From Deltaproteobacteria bacterium (GTDB lineage Bacteria; Desulfobacterota; Binatia; UBA9968): 47,522 nucleotides of DNA. Within the stretch, counting starts at the first letter, position 1. Each line of letters begins with the position of its first letter. A program made the translations under genes and the position numbers. Positions 6,343-20,905 of the stretch are shown here, in pieces. The stretch spans positions 1 through 47,522 of the forward strand of contig SHYW01000030.1 in assembly GCA_009692615.1 (NCBI GenBank). The letters run 5' to 3'. Below the pieces are notes generated by a model, which saw nothing but the letters and a program-made list of their open reading frames with translations, was not told the origin of the DNA and did no database searches.

Positions 6343-7293
6343 CTAATAGCCCAACTCTTTATCGACCAAGTTGTTGAGCGGCTCGCCGGCGAGAAAACGG
6401 TGCAGATTTTCTTTGAACACTGGCAACAGCGCGGGCCATTTTTGGCTGGTAATGCCGGCGATGCGCGGCGTGACGATGACGTTGGGCAAGTTCCACAGCT
6501 CGGAATCTTCCGGCAGCGGTTGTTTGGCGAAGGCGTCGAGCACGGCGCCGGCGAACCATTTCTCTTTGAGCGCGCGCACCAGCAACGTCTCTTCCACAGC
6601 GCGGCCGCCGGTGAGGTTGATGAAGTAGGCGCTTGGCTTCATCAAGCGCAACTCTTTCTCGCCGATGACGTTGAAGGTCGACGGCACGGAGGCGAGCAGC
6701 AGGACGACGAAATCGGCTTGCGCTAATAATTGCGGCAGAAATTCCGGCCCGCCCAACTCGTCGACAAAGTCCGGCTTAACGCCGGCGTTTCTTTTGATCG
6801 CCAGCACGTGCATGCCGAGGGCTTTGGCTTTGCGCGCCAATTCCATTCCCACCGTACCGAGGCCGACGATGCCGACGGTTTGGCCTTCAACTTCCACCGG
6901 CTGGAGTTTCTGCCATTTTTTCTGCCGCTGTGCGTCGATGCACTCGGGCAACTTTTTCGCGAGCGCGAAGATCCAAGCGAGGGCGAATTCCGAGAACACC
7001 GTGCCGTGGATGCCTTTGGATCCGGTGACTTGAATTGGCCGCGCCTTCACCGTTGGCGTCAGGTAAGCGTTGACGCCGCCGCGGGTGACGTGGAGCCATT
7101 TTAAATTAGTCATGCGCTGGACGACTTCGTCGAGGACAGCTTCTTCGGTGAAGACGCCGTCGACTTGGCTAAGCCACTGCGAATCGATGCTCGCATCGTC
7201 GCCTTGACGCAGGTCGCAGCCGGGAAATTCTTGTTTGAGCGCGGCGATTTCTTCGTCGGGGAGTTTTACCCGCAGCCAGATTTTTTTCGACAT
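6343..7293 (-). CDS. D-2-hydroxyacid dehydrogenase homologue, catalytic residues missing
   Basis: This 316-residue protein has the two-domain D-2-hydroxyacid dehydrogenase fold and an intact NAD-binding motif GLGTVG (144-149) followed by a normal Rossmann strand. All three residues of the family's catalytic set are replaced. The Arg of the N-x-x-R-G motif is G229 (INLTGG), the Glu of LDVFE is A256 (LDAFAKQP), and the His of TPHIAG is R277 (TPRIAG). The start is MSKKIW at 7291-7293; the frame stays open upstream but there encodes repeat-like sequence and overlaps the divergent aldolase gene. It is first of a minus-strand run with the BNR protein and the extradiol dioxygenase. It may bind dinucleotide and ligand without normal chemistry. 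Confidence 0.85.
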   Translation of the reverse strand: MSKKIWLRVKLPDEEIAALKQEFPGCDLRQGDDASIDSQWLSQVDGVFTEEAVLDEVVQRMTNLKWLHVTRGGVNAYLTPTVKARPIQVTGSKGIHGTVFSEFALAWIFALAKKLPECIDAQRQKKWQKLQPVEVEGQTVGIVGLGTVGMELARKAKALGMHVLAIKRNAGVKPDFVDELGGPEFLPQLLAQADFVVLLLASVPSTFNVIGEKELRLMKPSAYFINLTGGRAVEETLLVRALKEKWFAGAVLDAFAKQPLPEDSELWNLPNVIVTPRIAGITSQKWPALLPVFKENLHRFLAGEPLNNLVDKELGY

Positions 7294-7393: not shown

Positions 7394-8149
7394 ATGGCGA
7401 TTCCAAATTCTAAATCACAGATTCCAAATCGGCAGAGCGATGCGGCGTTGGCGAAGAATGTCGCGCTGTCGTGCCGCATTCTCGCTAAGCTCGGGCAGTT
7501 CAAAGAGACCACCGGGCATGTTAGCGCGCGCAGCGAAGACGGCTTGAACATGCTGATCCGCGGCCGCGGCAAGGAAGAGTCGGGGTTGCTGTTCACCAAG
7601 CCGGGCGACGTTGTCGCGGCGGATTTCGATGGCCGCATGCTGCGCGATAAAGCCGGACTCAAGACGCCCAACGAGTCGTGCATTCATGGTGAGCTGTACC
7701 GGGCGCGGCCCGAGGTCGGCGGGATTGTTCACGCCCATCCGCCGTCATTGGTTCTGACCAGCATGGCCGGCATCGAACTCAAGCCGGTGTTCGGCGGCTA
7801 CGATCCGCGCGCCATGCGTTTGGCGCTGCGGCCGATCCCAGTTTTTGAAAGCAGCCTGACGCTCCATAGCAAAGATCAGGTTCACGCGATGATGGATGTC
7901 ATGGGCGATCGCGATATCTGCATCATGCGCGGCCACGGCGTGGTGGTGTGCGGCAAGAGCGTCGAGGACGCAACCATCAAAGCGATCAAGCTCGATGCGT
8001 TGGCGCAGATGAATTTAGAATTCGCTCGGCTGGGCAAGAGTCCGACGATTTCCGAAGCCGACCTTGCGGCGTTTCAAAATCGCACTGGCAAAGGCGACGG
8101 CTCGGTGCAGCCGGTGTGGCGTTATTACGTCGAGTGGCTCAAGCATTGA
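7394..8149 (+). CDS. Class II aldolase/adducin family protein (1)
   Basis: This 251-residue protein is related to L-fuculose-phosphate aldolase and other zinc-dependent sugar-phosphate aldolases or epimerases. It shows the catalytic Glu in NESCIHGELYRARPE (about residues 95-109), a metal pair HAHP, and the third metal His in the MRGHGVVVCG segment. The ATG at 7394 follows GGGCGAGGAGA. The first dozen residues (AIPNSKSQIPN) look like translated dispersed repeat and lack family counterparts, so the folded domain starts near residue 15. A paralogue follows 38 bp downstream. The substrate is unknown; solo members often act as decarboxylases or aldolases on hydroxy acids. Confidence 0.85.
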   Translation: MAIPNSKSQIPNRQSDAALAKNVALSCRILAKLGQFKETTGHVSARSEDGLNMLIRGRGKEESGLLFTKPGDVVAADFDGRMLRDKAGLKTPNESCIHGELYRARPEVGGIVHAHPPSLVLTSMAGIELKPVFGGYDPRAMRLALRPIPVFESSLTLHSKDQVHAMMDVMGDRDICIMRGHGVVVCGKSVEDATIKAIKLDALAQMNLEFARLGKSPTISEADLAAFQNRTGKGDGSVQPVWRYYVEWLKH

Positions 8150-8187: not shown

Positions 8188-8940
8188 ATGGGGCCGAAAA
8201 TCCAAAATTCCAAATCCCCAATCGAAAATCTTAAGCGCCGCCTGGTCGAGGGCATTCAAGTGATCACTGGCGAAGGCGTGCTCAGCGGCTCGGGCCATTT
8301 GAGCGCGCGGATTCCCGGGACGGAAACGTTTTTGATCAATCCGCGCTTCGCCGGCGTGCTCGCCGATCCGAAGGATATTTGTACGGTGACCTTCGACGGC
8401 AAGCGCATCGCCGGCAAGGGACCGATTCCATCCGAGTCGCCGATTCATGCGGCGGTTTATCGGGCGCGGCCCGACGTCGGCAGCGTGATTCATTGTCACG
8501 CGCGCTATTCGATTCTCGTCGGCCTGTTGGACAAAGGGCTGATACCTTTCAACCGTGAGGCGCGGATCTTTTCCGATGGCGTGCCGGTGTTTCAAGACAG
8601 CCATGGCATCAACGATTTCACTTTGGCCGAGCGCATGGTGAAAAACCTCGGACCGCACTGGGCGACTTTCCTTCGCGGTCATGGCATCGTCGTCGCCGGG
8701 CCGGGTATCGAGGGCGCGTGCGTTTCCGCCATTCAACTGGAGCGCGCCTGCCAGGATCAGTTGTTGATGATGAGTGTGACAGAACTCAAGCCCATGACCG
8801 ATGCCGGCCGCGGCCGCAATCAAGCGCGCTTGGAAAATCCCTATCGCGCTTGGCCGTTTCTTCTATGGAAGCATAAAGTAAAATCCAAAGCGCAGATTCG
8901 CGCCGGGATTCGCACCTTGAAGGAAGGCGAGCATTATTAA
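8188..8940 (+). CDS. Class II aldolase/adducin family protein (2)
   Basis: This 250-residue paralogue of the preceding gene keeps the acid-base Glu segment SESPIHAAVYRARPDV, the metal pair as HCH (VIHCHARYS), and the third His in LRGHGIVVAGPG. The start is placed at ATG 8188 because the frame upstream lies inside the previous gene. Its N-terminus (MGPKIQNSKSPIENLK) again looks like translated repeat. The two aldolases may form hetero-oligomers or act on related substrates. The solute-binding gene 36 bp downstream could supply the substrate. Confidence 0.85.
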   Translation: MGPKIQNSKSPIENLKRRLVEGIQVITGEGVLSGSGHLSARIPGTETFLINPRFAGVLADPKDICTVTFDGKRIAGKGPIPSESPIHAAVYRARPDVGSVIHCHARYSILVGLLDKGLIPFNREARIFSDGVPVFQDSHGINDFTLAERMVKNLGPHWATFLRGHGIVVAGPGIEGACVSAIQLERACQDQLLMMSVTELKPMTDAGRGRNQARLENPYRAWPFLLWKHKVKSKAQIRAGIRTLKEGEHY

Positions 8941-10015: not shown

Positions 10016-10429
10016 TTGAGCACAGCGAAACCGCGCATCATCACGTACGAACTCCCCGGCGGCTGGACTGTGCTTGCCGGCGCCACCGACGCCGATAACG
10101 ATTATCTGAGCACCGAATTGGCGAATCCCGATGACTGGTGGTTTCACGCCGACAGCGTGCCGGGCAGTCATGTCATTTTACGAGCGAAAGCAGATGAAGA
10201 GCCGAGCCGCGAAACTTTGCGCCAAGCGGCGGCGGTGGCGCTGTACCATAGCAAGGCGCGCAACGCGGGGCTGGCGCCGGTGCATTGCACCCAAGCGCGC
10301 AACGTCAAGAAACCGCGCGGCGTCAAAACCGGCACGGTTCAAGTGGCCAAAGGCACGGTGCTCAAAGTGCGGCCCGATATCAGTTTCGCCGTGCGCGTGA
10401 GCGGCGCGGCCAAGCCGGCGGCGAATTAA
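10016..10429 (+). CDS. Stand-alone NFACT-R (DUF814) RNA-binding domain protein
   Basis: This 137-residue protein is made of only the NFACT-R domain, normally the C-terminal part of RqcH/Tae2/NEMF ribosome quality-control factors. Signature segments are DDWWFHADSVPGSHV (about 41-55) and the later NVKKPRGVKTGTV. The NFACT-N, HhH and coiled-coil regions are absent and no frame upstream encodes them. The start appears to be TTG at 10016, with no convincing Shine-Dalgarno sequence. It sits between two solute-binding-type genes, 25 bp after one and 14 bp before the other, so co-transcription is likely although a functional link is not obvious. Confidence 0.8.
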   Translation: MSTAKPRIITYELPGGWTVLAGATDADNDYLSTELANPDDWWFHADSVPGSHVILRAKADEEPSRETLRQAAAVALYHSKARNAGLAPVHCTQARNVKKPRGVKTGTVQVAKGTVLKVRPDISFAVRVSGAAKPAAN

Positions 10430-16052: not shown

Positions 16053-16670
16053 TTAGTCCCCCTCAGTTTTCATCTCCGGCTCCTTCAACACATGCTCCAC
16101 CAGCCGCGACAACTCTTCGTAGGGCTGCGCGCCGACCATCAGATATTTTCCTGCTAAAAACGTTGGCACGCCGTTGATGCCGAAAGACGCGCAGCGTTTC
16201 CAATCTTCATCCACGGCGTCTTTGTATTTGCGGCTGAGGAGCACGTCGGTGGCTTCGTCTTTGGGCAGGTCGTTGCGTTCGGCGACTTCCGCCAGCACTT
16301 CGATTTTGCCGATGTTTTTCACGTCGACAAAATAGGCGCGGAACAGTGCGTTGGCGACTTCTTCGGCTTTGCCTTTGGTTTCCGCCCATGCTGTCAATTC
16401 CTGCGCCAGCCGGCTGTTGAAGGACATGTTGCGTTCGGCGTTGAACGGCAAACCTTCGCGCTCCATGTTCACTTTCATCTTGCCGTTGCGCGCGATGATT
16501 TCCGGGCCGCGCACGCTGCCTTCTTCCGGCGTTTCCGGATGGAGCGGGAAGTTGGTGAATTTGATTCCTAGACCGTATTCGTTTTTGAGTTTCTCGACAC
16601 GCCCGGTGACGAGGTAGCACCAGGGTCAAACGAAGTCGGAAAAGATTTCTAATACTAAGGGTTCGGACAT
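16053..16670 (-). CDS. DsbA/FrnE-family oxidoreductase with in-frame TGA at the first active-site Cys (candidate selenoprotein)
   Basis: From ATG 16668-16670, preceded by a perfect GGAGG at 16676-16680, the frame reads MSEPLVLEIFSDFV, then TGA, then PWCYLVTGRVEKL. The family motif at this point is DFVCPWCY, so TGA (16626-16628) replaces exactly the first Cys of the C-P-W-C redox centre. The frame continues without further stops to TAA at 16053, giving 205 residues. Later family features are present, including the helical insertion and the cis-Pro loop GINGVPTFLAGKYLMVGA. A SECIS-like hairpin lies at 16593-16613. I infer a selenocysteine-containing thiol oxidoreductase (U15-P-W-C18). There is no signal peptide, so it is cytoplasmic like FrnE. 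The alternative is a nonsense mutation. It is tail-to-tail with the Uma2 gene and divergent from pcaD. Confidence 0.8.
16593..16613 (-). promoter_or_regulatory. SECIS-like hairpin downstream of in-frame TGA
   Basis: On the minus strand, CUCG and CAC pair with GUG and CGAG across a single U-U mismatch, closing a five-base loop CGGGC. The stem begins 12 nt after the TGA, and the loop lies 20 nt after it with G in its second position. This fits the general form of bacterial SECIS elements as I know them: a hairpin just 3' of UGA, a small apical loop, and an early G. A competing hairpin nearer the TGA (CCC-U-GGUG with CACC-GGG) is also possible. Only folding and comparative analysis could decide between them. 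Confidence 0.55.
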
Positions 16671-16804
16671 ACAGACCTCCAGTTCAAAACGTTCCAGCCG
16701 TGCAATCTGTTAAAACGGATTCTACGGTCGATGCTCGGTGGAAGTCAAAGGCTTTTTCGCCGGCTAATTTGACTTTCACCGATGCGCTCGGATAGTTTCA
16801 CACC

Positions 16805-17599
16805 ATGCCATTTTTGCAAATAGACGGTTACGTTCATCACTACGAGATTGACGGTGGCAAGGACAAGCCGGCGCTGCTATTCGCCAATTCCCTCGGCGGC
16901 GATCTGCGCATTTGGGACGGCGTTGCTTCACGTTTGTTACCGCACTTTCGCATCGTGCGTTACGATCTGCGCGGCCATGGGCTGACCGAAGCGCCGCCGC
17001 CGCCGTATTCGGCTGACGACCTGGCGCGGGATGTGGGCGGCTTGCTCGACGCGTTGGAAATCAACGACGCAATAATTTGCGGCGTATCGGTCGGCGGCAT
17101 GATCGCCCAGGCGTTCGCGGTGAATTATCCCGCGCGCGCGCGCGCGCTGGTGCTCTGCGATACCGGCGCGAAAATCGCGACGGCCGAAGCCTGGCAGCAG
17201 CGCATCGACAAGGTGCGCGCCGACGGGGTGGCTTCGCTCGTGCAAATGACCATGGAGCGTTGGTTTTGCGCCGGCTTTCGCGAGCGCTGCGCGCTCGACG
17301 TGCGCGGTTATTCGCTCATGCTGCGGCAGACTTCGCCGGACGGTTATGTCGGAACTTGCGCGGCGCTGCGCGATACCGATCTGCGCCAGGCTGTGACGCA
17401 AATCAAAAAGCCGACACTGGTGCTGTGCGGCGCGGAAGATATCGGCACGCCGCCGGAGTTGGGCCGCGAGTTGGCCGGTTCGATTCCCGGCGCGCAGTTT
17501 TGCTTGATCGACAAGGCGGCGCATCTGCCTTGCATCGAGCAACCGGCGGCGGTGGCCGAGCGCATGATGGAGTTTTTTCGGGAGGTAAAAATTGTCTGA
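16805..17599 (+). CDS. pcaD: 3-oxoadipate enol-lactonase (alpha/beta hydrolase)
   Basis: This 264-residue alpha/beta hydrolase would convert 3-oxoadipate enol-lactone to 3-oxoadipate, the last step in this window's beta-ketoadipate set. The oxyanion region (LFANSLGGDLRIWDG) is followed by the nucleophile elbow GVSVGG (Ser near residue 98), the acid in LCGAEDIGTP, and the catalytic His in DKAAHLPCIEQP. Length and motifs match PcaD. It overlaps pcaC by 8 bp, indicating translational coupling, and starts the plus-strand pca cluster. The ATG at 16805 begins the first beta strand. Confidence 0.9.
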   Translation: MPFLQIDGYVHHYEIDGGKDKPALLFANSLGGDLRIWDGVASRLLPHFRIVRYDLRGHGLTEAPPPPYSADDLARDVGGLLDALEINDAIICGVSVGGMIAQAFAVNYPARARALVLCDTGAKIATAEAWQQRIDKVRADGVASLVQMTMERWFCAGFRERCALDVRGYSLMLRQTSPDGYVGTCAALRDTDLRQAVTQIKKPTLVLCGAEDIGTPPELGRELAGSIPGAQFCLIDKAAHLPCIEQPAAVAERMMEFFREVKIV

Positions 17600-17975
17600 C
17601 GAACTTTTCGACAAAGGCATGGTGGTGCGCAAAGCGGTGCTCGGCGAAGAATACGTCGCGCGCGCCGAAGCGAACAAGACCGAGTTCGACCTTGACTGGC
17701 AGAATTACGTGACCGAGCACGCCTGGGGCGCGGTGTGGACGCGGCCGGGATTGGAACAACGCACGCGCAGCATGTTGACCATCGCGATGTTGGCATCGCT
17801 TGGCAGATTGGACGAACTCGGCGCGCATATCCGCGCCACGCGCAACACCGGTGTGACGAAAGAGGAAGTGAAAGAAGTGCTGCTCCAAGTCGCCGTCTAC
17901 GCCGGCGCGCCGGCGGCGAACTCGGCATTCGCCATCGCCAAGCGGGTTTATAAGGAGATGGAAGGAAAGACGTAA
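17592..17975 (+). CDS. pcaC: 4-carboxymuconolactone decarboxylase
   Basis: This 127-residue AhpD-like protein decarboxylates 4-carboxymuconolactone to 3-oxoadipate enol-lactone. Family features are the KGMVVRKAVLGEEYVARA N-terminus, WTRPGLEQRTRSMLTIAML in the middle, and HIRATRNTGVTKEEVKEVL, with the His in the ELGAHIRA helix. The start is TTG at 17592 with a strong GGAGGT seven bases upstream. It overlaps the end of pcaD by 8 bp. It is separate from PcaD, unlike the PcaL fusion found in some organisms. Confidence 0.92.
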   Translation: MSDELFDKGMVVRKAVLGEEYVARAEANKTEFDLDWQNYVTEHAWGAVWTRPGLEQRTRSMLTIAMLASLGRLDELGAHIRATRNTGVTKEEVKEVLLQVAVYAGAPAANSAFAIAKRVYKEMEGKT

Positions 17976-17976
17976 T

Positions 17977-18071
17977 TCACTACTCACCACGAAGACGCGA
18001 AGGACACGAAGTTCGGAGAATAATTTATCCAAAACCTTCGTGTCCTTCGTGCCTTCGTGGTGAAAAAATCA
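17977..18071. repeat. Long palindromic repeat (CACCACGAAG...CTTCGTGGTG)
   Basis: ACTCACCACGAAGACGCGAA then GGACACGAAG forms one arm and CTTCGTGTCCTTCGTG then CCTTCGTGGTG the other. Between them lies a centre TTCGGAGAATAATTTATCC that resembles the core of the repeats at 27453-27478 and 37705-37730. It occupies the gap between pcaC and pcaH. Confidence 0.75.
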
Positions 18072-18085
18072 GAGGAATAATTACG

Positions 18086-18799
18086 ATGCAAATAAAACCG
18101 TACAACCCGCGCGACTGGCGCTCCCATCCGCCTTACAGTTTCAAAGCCTACGGCTCGTCGGTCAAACGCGGGCCGCTCAAGAAATTAATTCCGCTTACGC
18201 AAACTCTGTCCGAGATCACCGGGCCGTTGTTCAGCGATATCAAACTGGAGCCGGGCGAGGACGATCTGACGCGCAATGCCGACACCGGCAAAGAGGCGAT
18301 GGGTGAGCGCATCATCGTGGTCGGCCGGGTGTTGGATGAAGACGACAAGCCGGTGCCCAATACTTTGATCGAAATTTGGCAGGCCAACGCCGCCGGGCGC
18401 TACGATCATCCGGTGGATCAACATAACGCGCCGCTCGATCCGAACTTCACTGGCACGGGGCGCTGCGTGACCAATGACAAGGGCGAGTATCGTTACTTGA
18501 CGATCAAGCCCGGCGCTTATCCTTGGTTGAATCACCCCAACGCGTGGCGGCCGGCGCATATTCATCTGTCGTTGTTCGGGCCGAGCTTCGTGACGCGGCT
18601 GGTGACGCAATTCTTCTTTCCCGGCGATCCCTTGATTCCGCTCGATCCGATTTTCAATTCGGTGCCGACCAAAAGCGGCCGCGAGCGGCTGATGTCGAGC
18701 TATGCGCACGACGTGAGCGAGCCCGAGTTCGCCTTGGGCTATCGCTTCGATATCGTTTTGCGCGGCCGGAAAGCAACGCCATTCGAGGGACCGCAATGA
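18086..18799 (+). CDS. pcaH: Protocatechuate 3,4-dioxygenase, beta subunit
   Basis: This 237-residue intradiol dioxygenase subunit carries the ferric site. The Tyr ligand is in NAAGRYDHPVDQ, the second Tyr in IKPGAYPWLNHP, and the two His in WRPAHIHLSLFG (HxH), which also holds the usual active-site Arg. With PcaG it cleaves protocatechuate to 3-carboxy-cis,cis-muconate. The upstream gap holds a palindromic repeat; AGAGGAATAATTACG supplies the ribosome-binding site. Its stop overlaps the pcaG start as ATGA. Confidence 0.94.
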   Translation: MQIKPYNPRDWRSHPPYSFKAYGSSVKRGPLKKLIPLTQTLSEITGPLFSDIKLEPGEDDLTRNADTGKEAMGERIIVVGRVLDEDDKPVPNTLIEIWQANAAGRYDHPVDQHNAPLDPNFTGTGRCVTNDKGEYRYLTIKPGAYPWLNHPNAWRPAHIHLSLFGPSFVTRLVTQFFFPGDPLIPLDPIFNSVPTKSGRERLMSSYAHDVSEPEFALGYRFDIVLRGRKATPFEGPQ

Positions 18800-19368
18800 G
18801 CAAGCAAACACCTTCGCAAACCGTCGGCCCGTTCTACGCCATCGGCCTGACGCGCCAGCCGATGAACGTCATGACGGCCGATTCGACCCCAGGCGAGCGC
18901 ATTCGTATCGAAGGACAAGTCTTTGACGGCGACGGCGTGGTGATCCCCGATGTCATGGTGGAGATCTGGCAGGCCAACACCTACGGCCGCTACAATCATC
19001 CCGATGACAAGCAGGAGAAACCGCTCGATCCGACGTTTACGGGTTGGGGCCGTTCGGGCACCGATGAAAAATGTTTCTACAGTTTTGAAACCATCAAGCC
19101 GGGCTCGGTGCCGGGGAATGACGAGAGCGTGCAAGCGCCGCACGTGAATGTCGTCGTATTTGCCCGCGGCATGTTGGTGCACGCGTACACACGCGTGTAT
19201 TTTGCCGACGAGCCGGCGAATGATAGTGATGCAGTTCTGAATTCGATTAAGAACAAACAGCGGCGCCAGACTTTGATTGCCGTGCCCGGAATGGAGAACG
19301 GCAAAACAGTTTATCGATTCGACATTCGGCTGCAGGGCGATGGCGAGACGGTTTTTTTCGATATGTGA
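18796..19368 (+). CDS. pcaG: Protocatechuate 3,4-dioxygenase, alpha subunit
   Basis: This 190-residue alpha subunit starts SKQTPSQTVGPFYAIGLT, the hallmark N-terminus. The intradiol fold is visible from VEIWQANTYGRYNHP to APHVNVVVFARGMLVHAYTR. The second iron His of the HIH motif is lacking, as expected for the non-catalytic alpha chain. The ATG at 18796 overlaps the pcaH stop by four bases (ATGA), so the subunits are translationally coupled. An open frame runs upstream within pcaH but is only a shadow. Confidence 0.93.
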   Translation: MSKQTPSQTVGPFYAIGLTRQPMNVMTADSTPGERIRIEGQVFDGDGVVIPDVMVEIWQANTYGRYNHPDDKQEKPLDPTFTGWGRSGTDEKCFYSFETIKPGSVPGNDESVQAPHVNVVVFARGMLVHAYTRVYFADEPANDSDAVLNSIKNKQRRQTLIAVPGMENGKTVYRFDIRLQGDGETVFFDM

Positions 19369-19392
19369 ATTGGTTTTATCTCGGTGCGTTTC

Positions 19393-19508
19393 GGCCTCTC
19401 CCGCTGGGAGAGGATTGAGGTGAGGGCAAAGCGGCATGCGCGCAAGGGCGACCGCCGGTCGCCCCTACAAGAGCCCTCAACCTAGCCCTCTCCCAGCGGG
19501 AGAGGGAA
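19393..19508. repeat. Compound palindromic repeat between pcaG and pcaB
   Basis: A CCTCTCCCGCTGGGAGAGG unit with TGAGGTGAGGG and its inverted partner (CCCTCTCCCAGCGGGAGAGG) flank a GTAGGGGCGACC-type palindrome, read here as GGGCGACCGCCGGTCGCCCC at 19446-19465. This looks like one repeat family inserted between the two halves of another. It could form a long hairpin in the pca mRNA. Confidence 0.75.
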
Positions 19509-19564
19509 CCGGTGGATGGGTTTTCGGAAGAGATTCGGATTGTGAGGAATTGTCGCTTCTGCCA

Positions 19565-20905
19565 ATGAGTTTACTCGATTCAACTATTTTCGCGCCGCTG
19601 TTTGGCGATGATGAGATCAATCGGCTCTTCAGCGACCCTGCGTATGTTCGCGCGCTCGTCGAAGTCGAAATCGCGCTCGCGCGCGCTGAAGCTCATGTCG
19701 GTGTGATTCCCGCCAGTGCCGCCGAGCAGATTGATAAAGTTGCCGCGGATAAAATTGATCTCGCGGCTTTGGCGGCGGGGACTGTGCGTTCCGGCTTTCC
19801 GATCATCGCGTTGGTGCAGGAGTTGCGCAAGCAAGTTTCCGCCGATGCCGCGCCTTATGTTCACTGGGGCGCGACGACGCAGGACATTGTGGATACGGCT
19901 TGCGTGTTGCAGCTGCGTGCCGTCATTGAGTTGATCGGCAAGCGGATTAGCGAAATTGTTCGCAACTTGAGCGTGCTGGCGGAGCGGCATCGTTCGACGG
20001 TGCTCGCCGGACGGACCCATAGCCAGCAAGCGTTGCCGATTACCTTCGGCTTGAAAGTGGCCGGTTGGCTGGCGCCGCTGCTGCGCCACGTTGTGCGATT
20101 GCAGGAAATGCGACCGCGCTTGCTGGTCGTCCAGTTCGGCGGTGCGGCTGGAACGTTGGCGGCGCTGGGCGACAAAGGTTTGGCGGTGACGCAAGCATTG
20201 GCGAGCGAATTGAAATTGGCCACGCCGCTGACGCCATGGCACACCCAGCGCGATTGTTTCGTTGAATTCGCCGGCTGGTTGAGTTTGCTCACCGGCTCGC
20301 TCGGCAAGATGGCCCAGGACATTATTCTTCTGGCGCAGACGGAAGTGGGCGAAGTCGGCGAGTCGGGCGAAGCGGGCCGCGGCGGCAGCAGCACCATGCC
20401 GCAGAAGTCCAATCCGATAACCAGCGAGTTGATCGTCGCCGCGGCGCGCATGAATGCGTCGTTGCTGTCGGCGCTGCACAACGCGCAGATTCAGGAACAG
20501 GAGCGCGGCACCCATGGCTGGCAAGTGGAATGGCTGACGTTGCCACAGATGATTCAGCTGACCAGCGGCGCTTTGAAGCACGCGGATTATCTGGCAAAGA
20601 ATTTACAGGTTGATGCACAAGCGATGCGGGCGAACATTTCACGCGCTAACGATGTTGTCCTCGGCGAAGCGGCGGTGTTCGCTTTGGCTATAACGATGCC
20701 GCGCGCACAGGCAGAGGAATTAGTAAAAAAAGCCTGCGCCATCGCCGTGTCGGAGAACAAATCGCTCATCGATGTGGTCAAGAATCTCGCCGGAGATTCG
20801 GTTACATCGATCGACTGGCAGGCATTGGCAAGACCGGAAAATTATCTCGGCGAGAGTGAGAAGTTGATCGACAGAGTTTTGGCATTCAGCAAGAAAATCG
20901 GATGA
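19565..20905 (+). CDS. pcaB: 3-carboxy-cis,cis-muconate cycloisomerase
   Basis: This 446-residue member of the fumarase/aspartase superfamily has its signature loop GGSSTMPQKSNP near residue 275, with the preceding GEAG. Other conserved regions are AGRTHSQQALPITFGLK (near 143) and the HWGATTQDIVDT active-site segment (near 100). It converts 3-carboxymuconate to 4-carboxymuconolactone, between PcaGH and PcaC. The start MSLLDSTIFAPLF at ATG 19565 is chosen because the open frame further upstream translates a repeat. There is a 196-bp gap from pcaG. Confidence 0.93.
   Translation: MSLLDSTIFAPLFGDDEINRLFSDPAYVRALVEVEIALARAEAHVGVIPASAAEQIDKVAADKIDLAALAAGTVRSGFPIIALVQELRKQVSADAAPYVHWGATTQDIVDTACVLQLRAVIELIGKRISEIVRNLSVLAERHRSTVLAGRTHSQQALPITFGLKVAGWLAPLLRHVVRLQEMRPRLLVVQFGGAAGTLAALGDKGLAVTQALASELKLATPLTPWHTQRDCFVEFAGWLSLLTGSLGKMAQDIILLAQTEVGEVGESGEAGRGGSSTMPQKSNPITSELIVAAARMNASLLSALHNAQIQEQERGTHGWQVEWLTLPQMIQLTSGALKHADYLAKNLQVDAQAMRANISRANDVVLGEAAVFALAITMPRAQAEELVKKACAIAVSENKSLIDVVKNLAGDSVTSIDWQALARPENYLGESEKLIDRVLAFSKKIG

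Follow-up and report, generated by a model that had tools for sequence, protein, structure and literature searches.

A FrnE-like DsbA-family protein from a Binatia-type bacterium with an active-site UGA codon very probably read as selenocysteine

The window analysed here, that is, the whole stretch of 47,522 nucleotides of contig SHYW01000030.1, contains on its minus strand a gene whose codon 15 is TGA, at the first position of a thioredoxin-fold redox motif. The features of this locus are as follows.

16053..16670, minus strand: putative selenoprotein gene for a FrnE/DsbA-like thiol(selenol)-disulfide oxidoreductase, 205 aa, UPWC motif
16676..16680, minus strand: Shine-Dalgarno-like GGAGG, 5 nt upstream of the ATG at 16670
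16626..16628, minus strand: TGA, codon 15, probable Sec at the first position of U-P-W-C (sequence and homologue codons)
16617..16619, minus strand: TGC, Cys18, probable resolving partner of Sec15 (sequence and alignment)
16593..16613, minus strand: candidate bacterial SECIS hairpin, 8-bp stem, loop CGGGC at 16601-16605, the loop starting 20 nt past the UGA

An initial annotation had described a GGAGG and an ATG opening a frame with TGA as its fifteenth codon, and these elements are present on the minus strand at 16680-16676, 16670 and 16628-16626, respectively. The TGA is followed by PWCY and by 190 sense codons up to a TAA. The DsbA/FrnE features noted past the TGA are borne out by the Pfam DSBA domain (PF01323), which matches residues 7-189 of the read-through protein with E 3.3e-35 and 122 bits (cut-off 25.6 bits). 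Besides position 15, the only cysteines of the protein are Cys18 and Cys160. With ordinary start codons the ORF opens at GTG 16514, where a gene finder had been expected to begin; it encodes 153 aa and the active site is lost. A profile search of NCBIfam gave no model above its cut-off for the window protein, so annotation pipelines would be expected to start the gene at 16514 and to miss the active site. The UPWC protein thereby exposes a gap in annotation.

The gene adjoins an alpha/beta-hydrolase gene. A protocatechuate (beta-ketoadipate) cluster lies at 16805-20905 on the plus strand and consists of alpha/beta hydrolase, CMD, protocatechuate 3,4-dioxygenase beta, a second dioxygenase subunit and Lyase_1. 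By labels of our own, the neighboring alpha/beta-hydrolase is called pcaD-like and Lyase_1 pcaB-like. At homologous loci, the alpha/beta-hydrolase family directly adjoins the gene in L134 and stands one ORF away in L136, L135 has the CMD gene next to it, and two other neighbor families turn up in 7 and 6 of 21 sources, though not at a fixed position. Because the Sec gene went unrecognised in 9 of 20 loci, this neighborhood result is weak. Elsewhere in the window, Aldolase_II (PF00596) has two plus-strand matches in different frames (7460-8017 and 8284-8763), 2-Hacid_dh_C matches 6457-6978 on the minus strand and NFACT-R_1 matches 10061-10345 on the plus strand. The longest ORFs look odd around these matches.

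Codon 15 was compared in 110 homologous loci, 30 of which came from a genome search and the others from named contigs, where the best 80 of 144 were taken. It is TGA in 37 loci, TGC in 56 and TGT in 17, giving 73 with Cys. Among the 37 TGA loci are the copy in the window itself and five contigs found in both collections; counted by distinct DNA around codon 15, the set comes to 32 TGA and 73 Cys rows. The codons separate by identity, all 37 loci at 47% or above having TGA and all those below having Cys. DFVCPWCY was one of the six patterns of the named-contig search, from which most Cys loci came, and the pattern partly predetermines Cys at codon 15 for these loci, while the TGA loci of that search are expected through the other patterns only. 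The genome search is free of this pattern bias. Among its 117 genomes it found 28 close copies at E <1e-55, the window's included, and all of them have TGA (L022-L049). As to the scattered stops named in the initial annotation, in these copies the sole stop within the match besides the TGA was one TAG, in L032.

The next 20 remote matches of the genome search that reach the site have TGC (9), TGT (6) or TCT for Ser (4), and one is unaligned there. The Ser forms (L179, L180, L181 and L183; 23-29% identity, SSLSY/SSLCY motif) are DsbA-fold homologues of another subfamily with a different type of active site, and given these forms the statement that codon 15 is either TGA or Cys is valid just for the 110 loci. 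Five remote TGA homologues taken on purpose (L152-L156, 28-33% identity), from genomes of the same class, all have TGA at the same position, within UPYC, UPFC or UPWC motifs, and NCBIfam has no family above cut-off for four such remote homologues. The alignment that the initial annotation had called for thus gave TGA in the close homologues and Cys in the remoter ones of FrnE type.

The homologue of a Candidatus Binatia (L055) is 75% identical to the window protein, and other near relatives are labelled Deltaproteobacteria or otherwise. The Sec form was also seen in metagenome-assembled genomes labelled Planctomycetia (L057), Alphaproteobacteria (L058), Acidobacteria (L059) and Granulosicoccaceae (L060). 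L057 matches the window protein over 125 residues with 93% identity, and its contig looks misplaced or mislabelled; the Sec forms in the L058-L060 bins may reflect transfer or mislabelling. A plasmid search returned remote homologues only, all below 60% identity.

Other parts of the gene are conserved together with the TGA. Codon 18 encodes Cys in each of the 110 loci; in an alignment of 50 chosen rows Cys18 and P169 are invariant and V168, which forms the VP loop with P169, is nearly so. The start region, the TGA and then PWCY are common to 37 of the 110 loci, 32 of them distinct, and for this reason the read-through frame is not a chance event. In all 13 comparisons with chosen relatives, the nonsynonymous rate is lower than the synonymous rate both in codons 1-14 and after the TGA; there are about 9 synonymous sites before the TGA, so that we take the selection result as supporting evidence only.

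A standard gene caller would yield the 153-aa ORF, and one might therefore suppose that the internal GTG 16514 is the true start of a short but working protein and that the part upstream is unused. Such a protein would lack the active site and the first strand of the fold. Its start would leave unaccounted for the GGAGG ahead of ATG 16670, the start Met and codons 1-14 that align across the 37 TGA loci, and the low nonsynonymous rate in those codons, few as their sites are. We regard this explanation as very improbable.

The genome of the window (5.05 Mb, 186 contigs, 98.7% complete) was searched, as the initial annotation had proposed, for selA, selB, selD and the selC tRNA. All four are present and score over their cut-offs.

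C70:4831-6162, minus strand: selA, 616.7 bits (cut-off 267.9)
C70:2873-4756, minus strand: selB, 410.3 bits (cut-off 242.25)
C70:1609-2535, minus strand: selD, 372 bits (cut-off 125), with one in-frame TGA
C142:8045-8135: tRNA-Sec, 74.9 bits (gathering score 47), called tRNA-SeC with anticodon tca by ARAGORN

The in-frame TGA of selD reads KAAGUAAKLG, where the U is at what we take to be the catalytic Cys/Sec position of SelD. With SelD also containing UGA, there are at least two candidate selenoprotein genes in this genome. A search of the genome for a Sec formate dehydrogenase gave 10 Fdh-alpha matches, none over the cut-off and none with an internal stop. In the window and the selA locus, no Rfam family reached its gathering score and ARAGORN found no tRNA.

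With the same cut-offs, 14 control genomes had selA in 1, selB in 2, selD in 2 and tRNA-Sec in 5. The genomes compared are mostly draft assemblies, and selA was over the cut-off in 31 of the 34 further genomes that share the window's genus, family or order (the three without it being G002, G009 and G014). A close copy of the gene that reaches the site was found in 27 of the 34, and selA was over the cut-off in 25 of these 27. As for the remaining genomes of the order, G010, G016 and G017 have no match, G002, G022 and G023 have remote matches only, and G034 has only a fragment of the gene that ends short of the codon-15 site. For nine chosen genomes behind named loci, selA was present in all four with the Sec form (L057-L060) versus one of five with the Cys form.

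A few genomes depart from this pattern. G009 has the TGA gene, and none of selA, selB and tRNA-Sec is over the cut-off in its bin, which is stated to be 100% complete; our guess is that the bin has a gap or that a contig was misplaced. In G014, selA and selB are not over the cut-off and tRNA-Sec is present with 74.2 bits. In G010 there is a piece of selA, selB is not over the cut-off and the DsbA match is absent. G112 carries tRNA-Sec along with a remote homologue that has TGA; selB is not over the cut-off there.

The presence of the Sec machinery bears on a reading of the UGA by something other than selenocysteine, either a general reassignment to Trp or Cys or an unspecific readthrough. The frame stays open past the UGA, which is compatible with any inserted residue. 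But TGA ends 16 of 40 greedily chosen window ORFs of at least 110 aa (not all necessarily genes), and UGA thus looks like an ordinary stop in the window; the nearest homologues without TGA have Cys at the position, and the Sec machinery of the genome is complete. We consider a non-Sec reading highly unlikely.

Immediately behind the UGA, at 16613-16593, the RNA can form a hairpin with a stem of 8 positions, of which 7 are standard pairs and one is a U-U mismatch. Covariation was assessed in 30 distinct 48-mers (the 32 minus two duplicates), in which the stem occupies columns 16-23/29-36. Of the 240 cells of the stem, 94.6% are paired, as compared to 21-46% for slid stems, and 4 of its 8 pairs are changed on both sides. 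None of 500 shuffles matched the hairpin in paired percentage, in doubly changed pairs or in covariation score; the count of further pair types was not above the shuffles (4 vs. 6.0). The pair of columns 20-32 is U-U in 10 rows, the window among these. The clearest double changes, at columns 19-33 and 21-31, occur in 10 rows each and split the rows into two related groups, and they should accordingly be counted as few events rather than ten.

In the 32 TGA rows the 5-nt loop reads CGGGC 30 times and CGUGC twice. A G within the first two loop positions is found in all 32 TGA rows and also in 52 of 73 Cys rows, so the early G alone says little. Its combination with at least 7 of 8 pairs is found in 31 of 32 TGA rows versus 3 of 73 Cys rows. 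A 2026 review gives limits for bacterial SECIS elements of a 3-9 nt loop, a G in the first two positions, a distance of 16-37 nt from the UGA and a stem of 4-16 bp (PMC13188914). The window hairpin, with a 5-nt loop, G second, 20 nt and an 8-position stem, lies within all of these. The energy limit given in the same review is -7.5 kcal/mol (PMC13188914), and here the window hairpin is borderline. The minimum free energies of the 21-mer alone are -7.2 kcal/mol for the window, -7.5 for the commonest relative and -5.5 for L060, and a value of -9.6 is reached only if the U-U pair is forced. When the longer window RNA is folded, the structure of lowest energy is a different stem, unremarkable against shuffles (z -1.1); it was dropped as a SECIS candidate since covariation is absent and only about 8 nt separate the UGA from the start of its loop.

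The main alternative raised in the initial annotation was a nonsense mutation from TGC or TGT to TGA. We took it together with a sequencing error as one rival, in which a FrnE gene of the usual Cys type has become a young pseudogene. A single base separates TGA from the Cys codons and Cys is found in 73 of the 110 loci, but the recurrence of this TGA in 32 distinct loci with identities as low as 47%, the coding-type substitution on both sides of it and the covarying hairpin behind it leave this alternative next to no probability and effectively exclude it.

The sel genes, the tRNA-Sec, the homologue codons and the covarying SECIS-like hairpin all back the proposal that the TGA stands for Sec. 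We infer that this organism very probably reads UGA codon 15 as selenocysteine in a FrnE-like active site. SelB with Sec-tRNA-Sec would decode the UGA under the direction of the hairpin, and the product would be a DsbA-family protein of FrnE type, with Sec15 making the nucleophilic attack and Cys18 resolving the intermediate. As a whole, this explanation appears to us highly probable.

The structure of the protein was predicted from the alignment of 50 chosen rows, with Cys in place of Sec. The model has a mean pLDDT of 93.3 and places the U15-PW-C18 motif at the start of helix 16-32. The best PDB matches are Deinococcus radiodurans FrnE, with TM 0.85-0.88 and first by E-value, and SCO1869, with TM 0.90; lower matches are a putative disulfide isomerase of Nitrosomonas, YjbH, HCCA isomerase and kappa GST. 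FrnE is also first by sequence (E 7.5e-16). Sequence and model together point to the FrnE type of the DsbA family.

According to PMC8945050, FrnE proteins are predicted cytoplasmic thiol oxidoreductases, and a D. radiodurans mutant has raised sensitivity to cadmium and diamide. The window protein is probably cytoplasmic as well. It may reduce or isomerise cytoplasmic disulfides, with thiol redox or oxidative-stress defence as its most likely role.

The history of the two forms was examined in a tree for which the Sec/Cys column was masked; it holds 109 rows, 36 of them Sec, and L156 is left out. The tree needs 6 Sec/Cys changes, at least 5 of which are forced by well-supported branches; its bootstrap has yet to settle completely, and a number of long branches come together. 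One all-Sec clade of 29 rows (support 98/93) contains the window's order together with L057, labelled Planctomycetia. The four of L152-L156 that are in the tree lie away from the main Sec clade and are therefore likely to be independent or old Sec forms. We think it somewhat more likely than not that the Sec FrnE is the standing, ancestral form in the Binatia order and is selected there and that elsewhere, the remote UxxC forms included, Sec and Cys have been exchanged repeatedly. If this is true, these proteins are a natural series in which to test what selenium gains a cytoplasmic disulfide enzyme.

The Binatia lineage is known mainly from metagenome-assembled genomes, and with this protein it gains a strongly supported selenoprotein. 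Our literature search, which covered subscription papers in part, found no paper joining selenocysteine or selenoprotein with Binatia or Binatota. For selenoprotein, FrnE and DsbA together, the literature searched contained only work on animal genes.

Among known proteins, D. radiodurans FrnE (DR_0659; 5co3, 5cnw, 5cp1, 5xwh) has CP(W/F)C where the window protein has UPWC, and thus Cys rather than Sec. It also has a C-terminal CXXXXC, for which PMC8945050 proposes a role in regeneration, whereas CXXXXC is absent from the 205-aa window protein. The same paper describes this motif as present in many FrnE proteins and absent from some (PMC8945050), so it does not define the family. The putative DsbA oxidoreductase SCO1869 of Streptomyces coelicolor (3gl5) resembles the window protein with TM 0.90, E 1.4e-11 and 24% identity, and the title of its entry does not mention selenium. 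The Rcas_1661 family thioredoxin-like (seleno)lipoprotein model, NF041057, matches residues 104-193 weakly; at 31.1 bits, far below its 190-bit cut-off, membership of the window protein in this family was rejected.

DsbA-like proteins with selenocysteine have been described before. One such group belongs to COG2761, which we take to be FrnE. Nine DsbA-like UxxC selenoprotein sequences of COG2761 came from the Sargasso Sea (PMC1088965), others were reported in the cultured bacteria Anaeromyxobacter, Desulfovibrio desulfuricans and Desulfotomaculum (PMC1794560), and the 2026 review tabulates DsbA-like form 1 (PF01323), also in Asgard archaea (PMC13188914). The published proteins and the window protein share the Pfam domain, the UxxC motif and Sec at the position of the first Cys, an agreement at the level of domain and motif. 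Since DsbA-like UxxC selenoproteins have been known since 2005, the window protein adds an example and not a new kind. The published members come from other sources, while the window's Sec form occurs in most of the genomes sampled from a single Binatia-type order, and this strongly supported occurrence of a Sec FrnE is what is added here.
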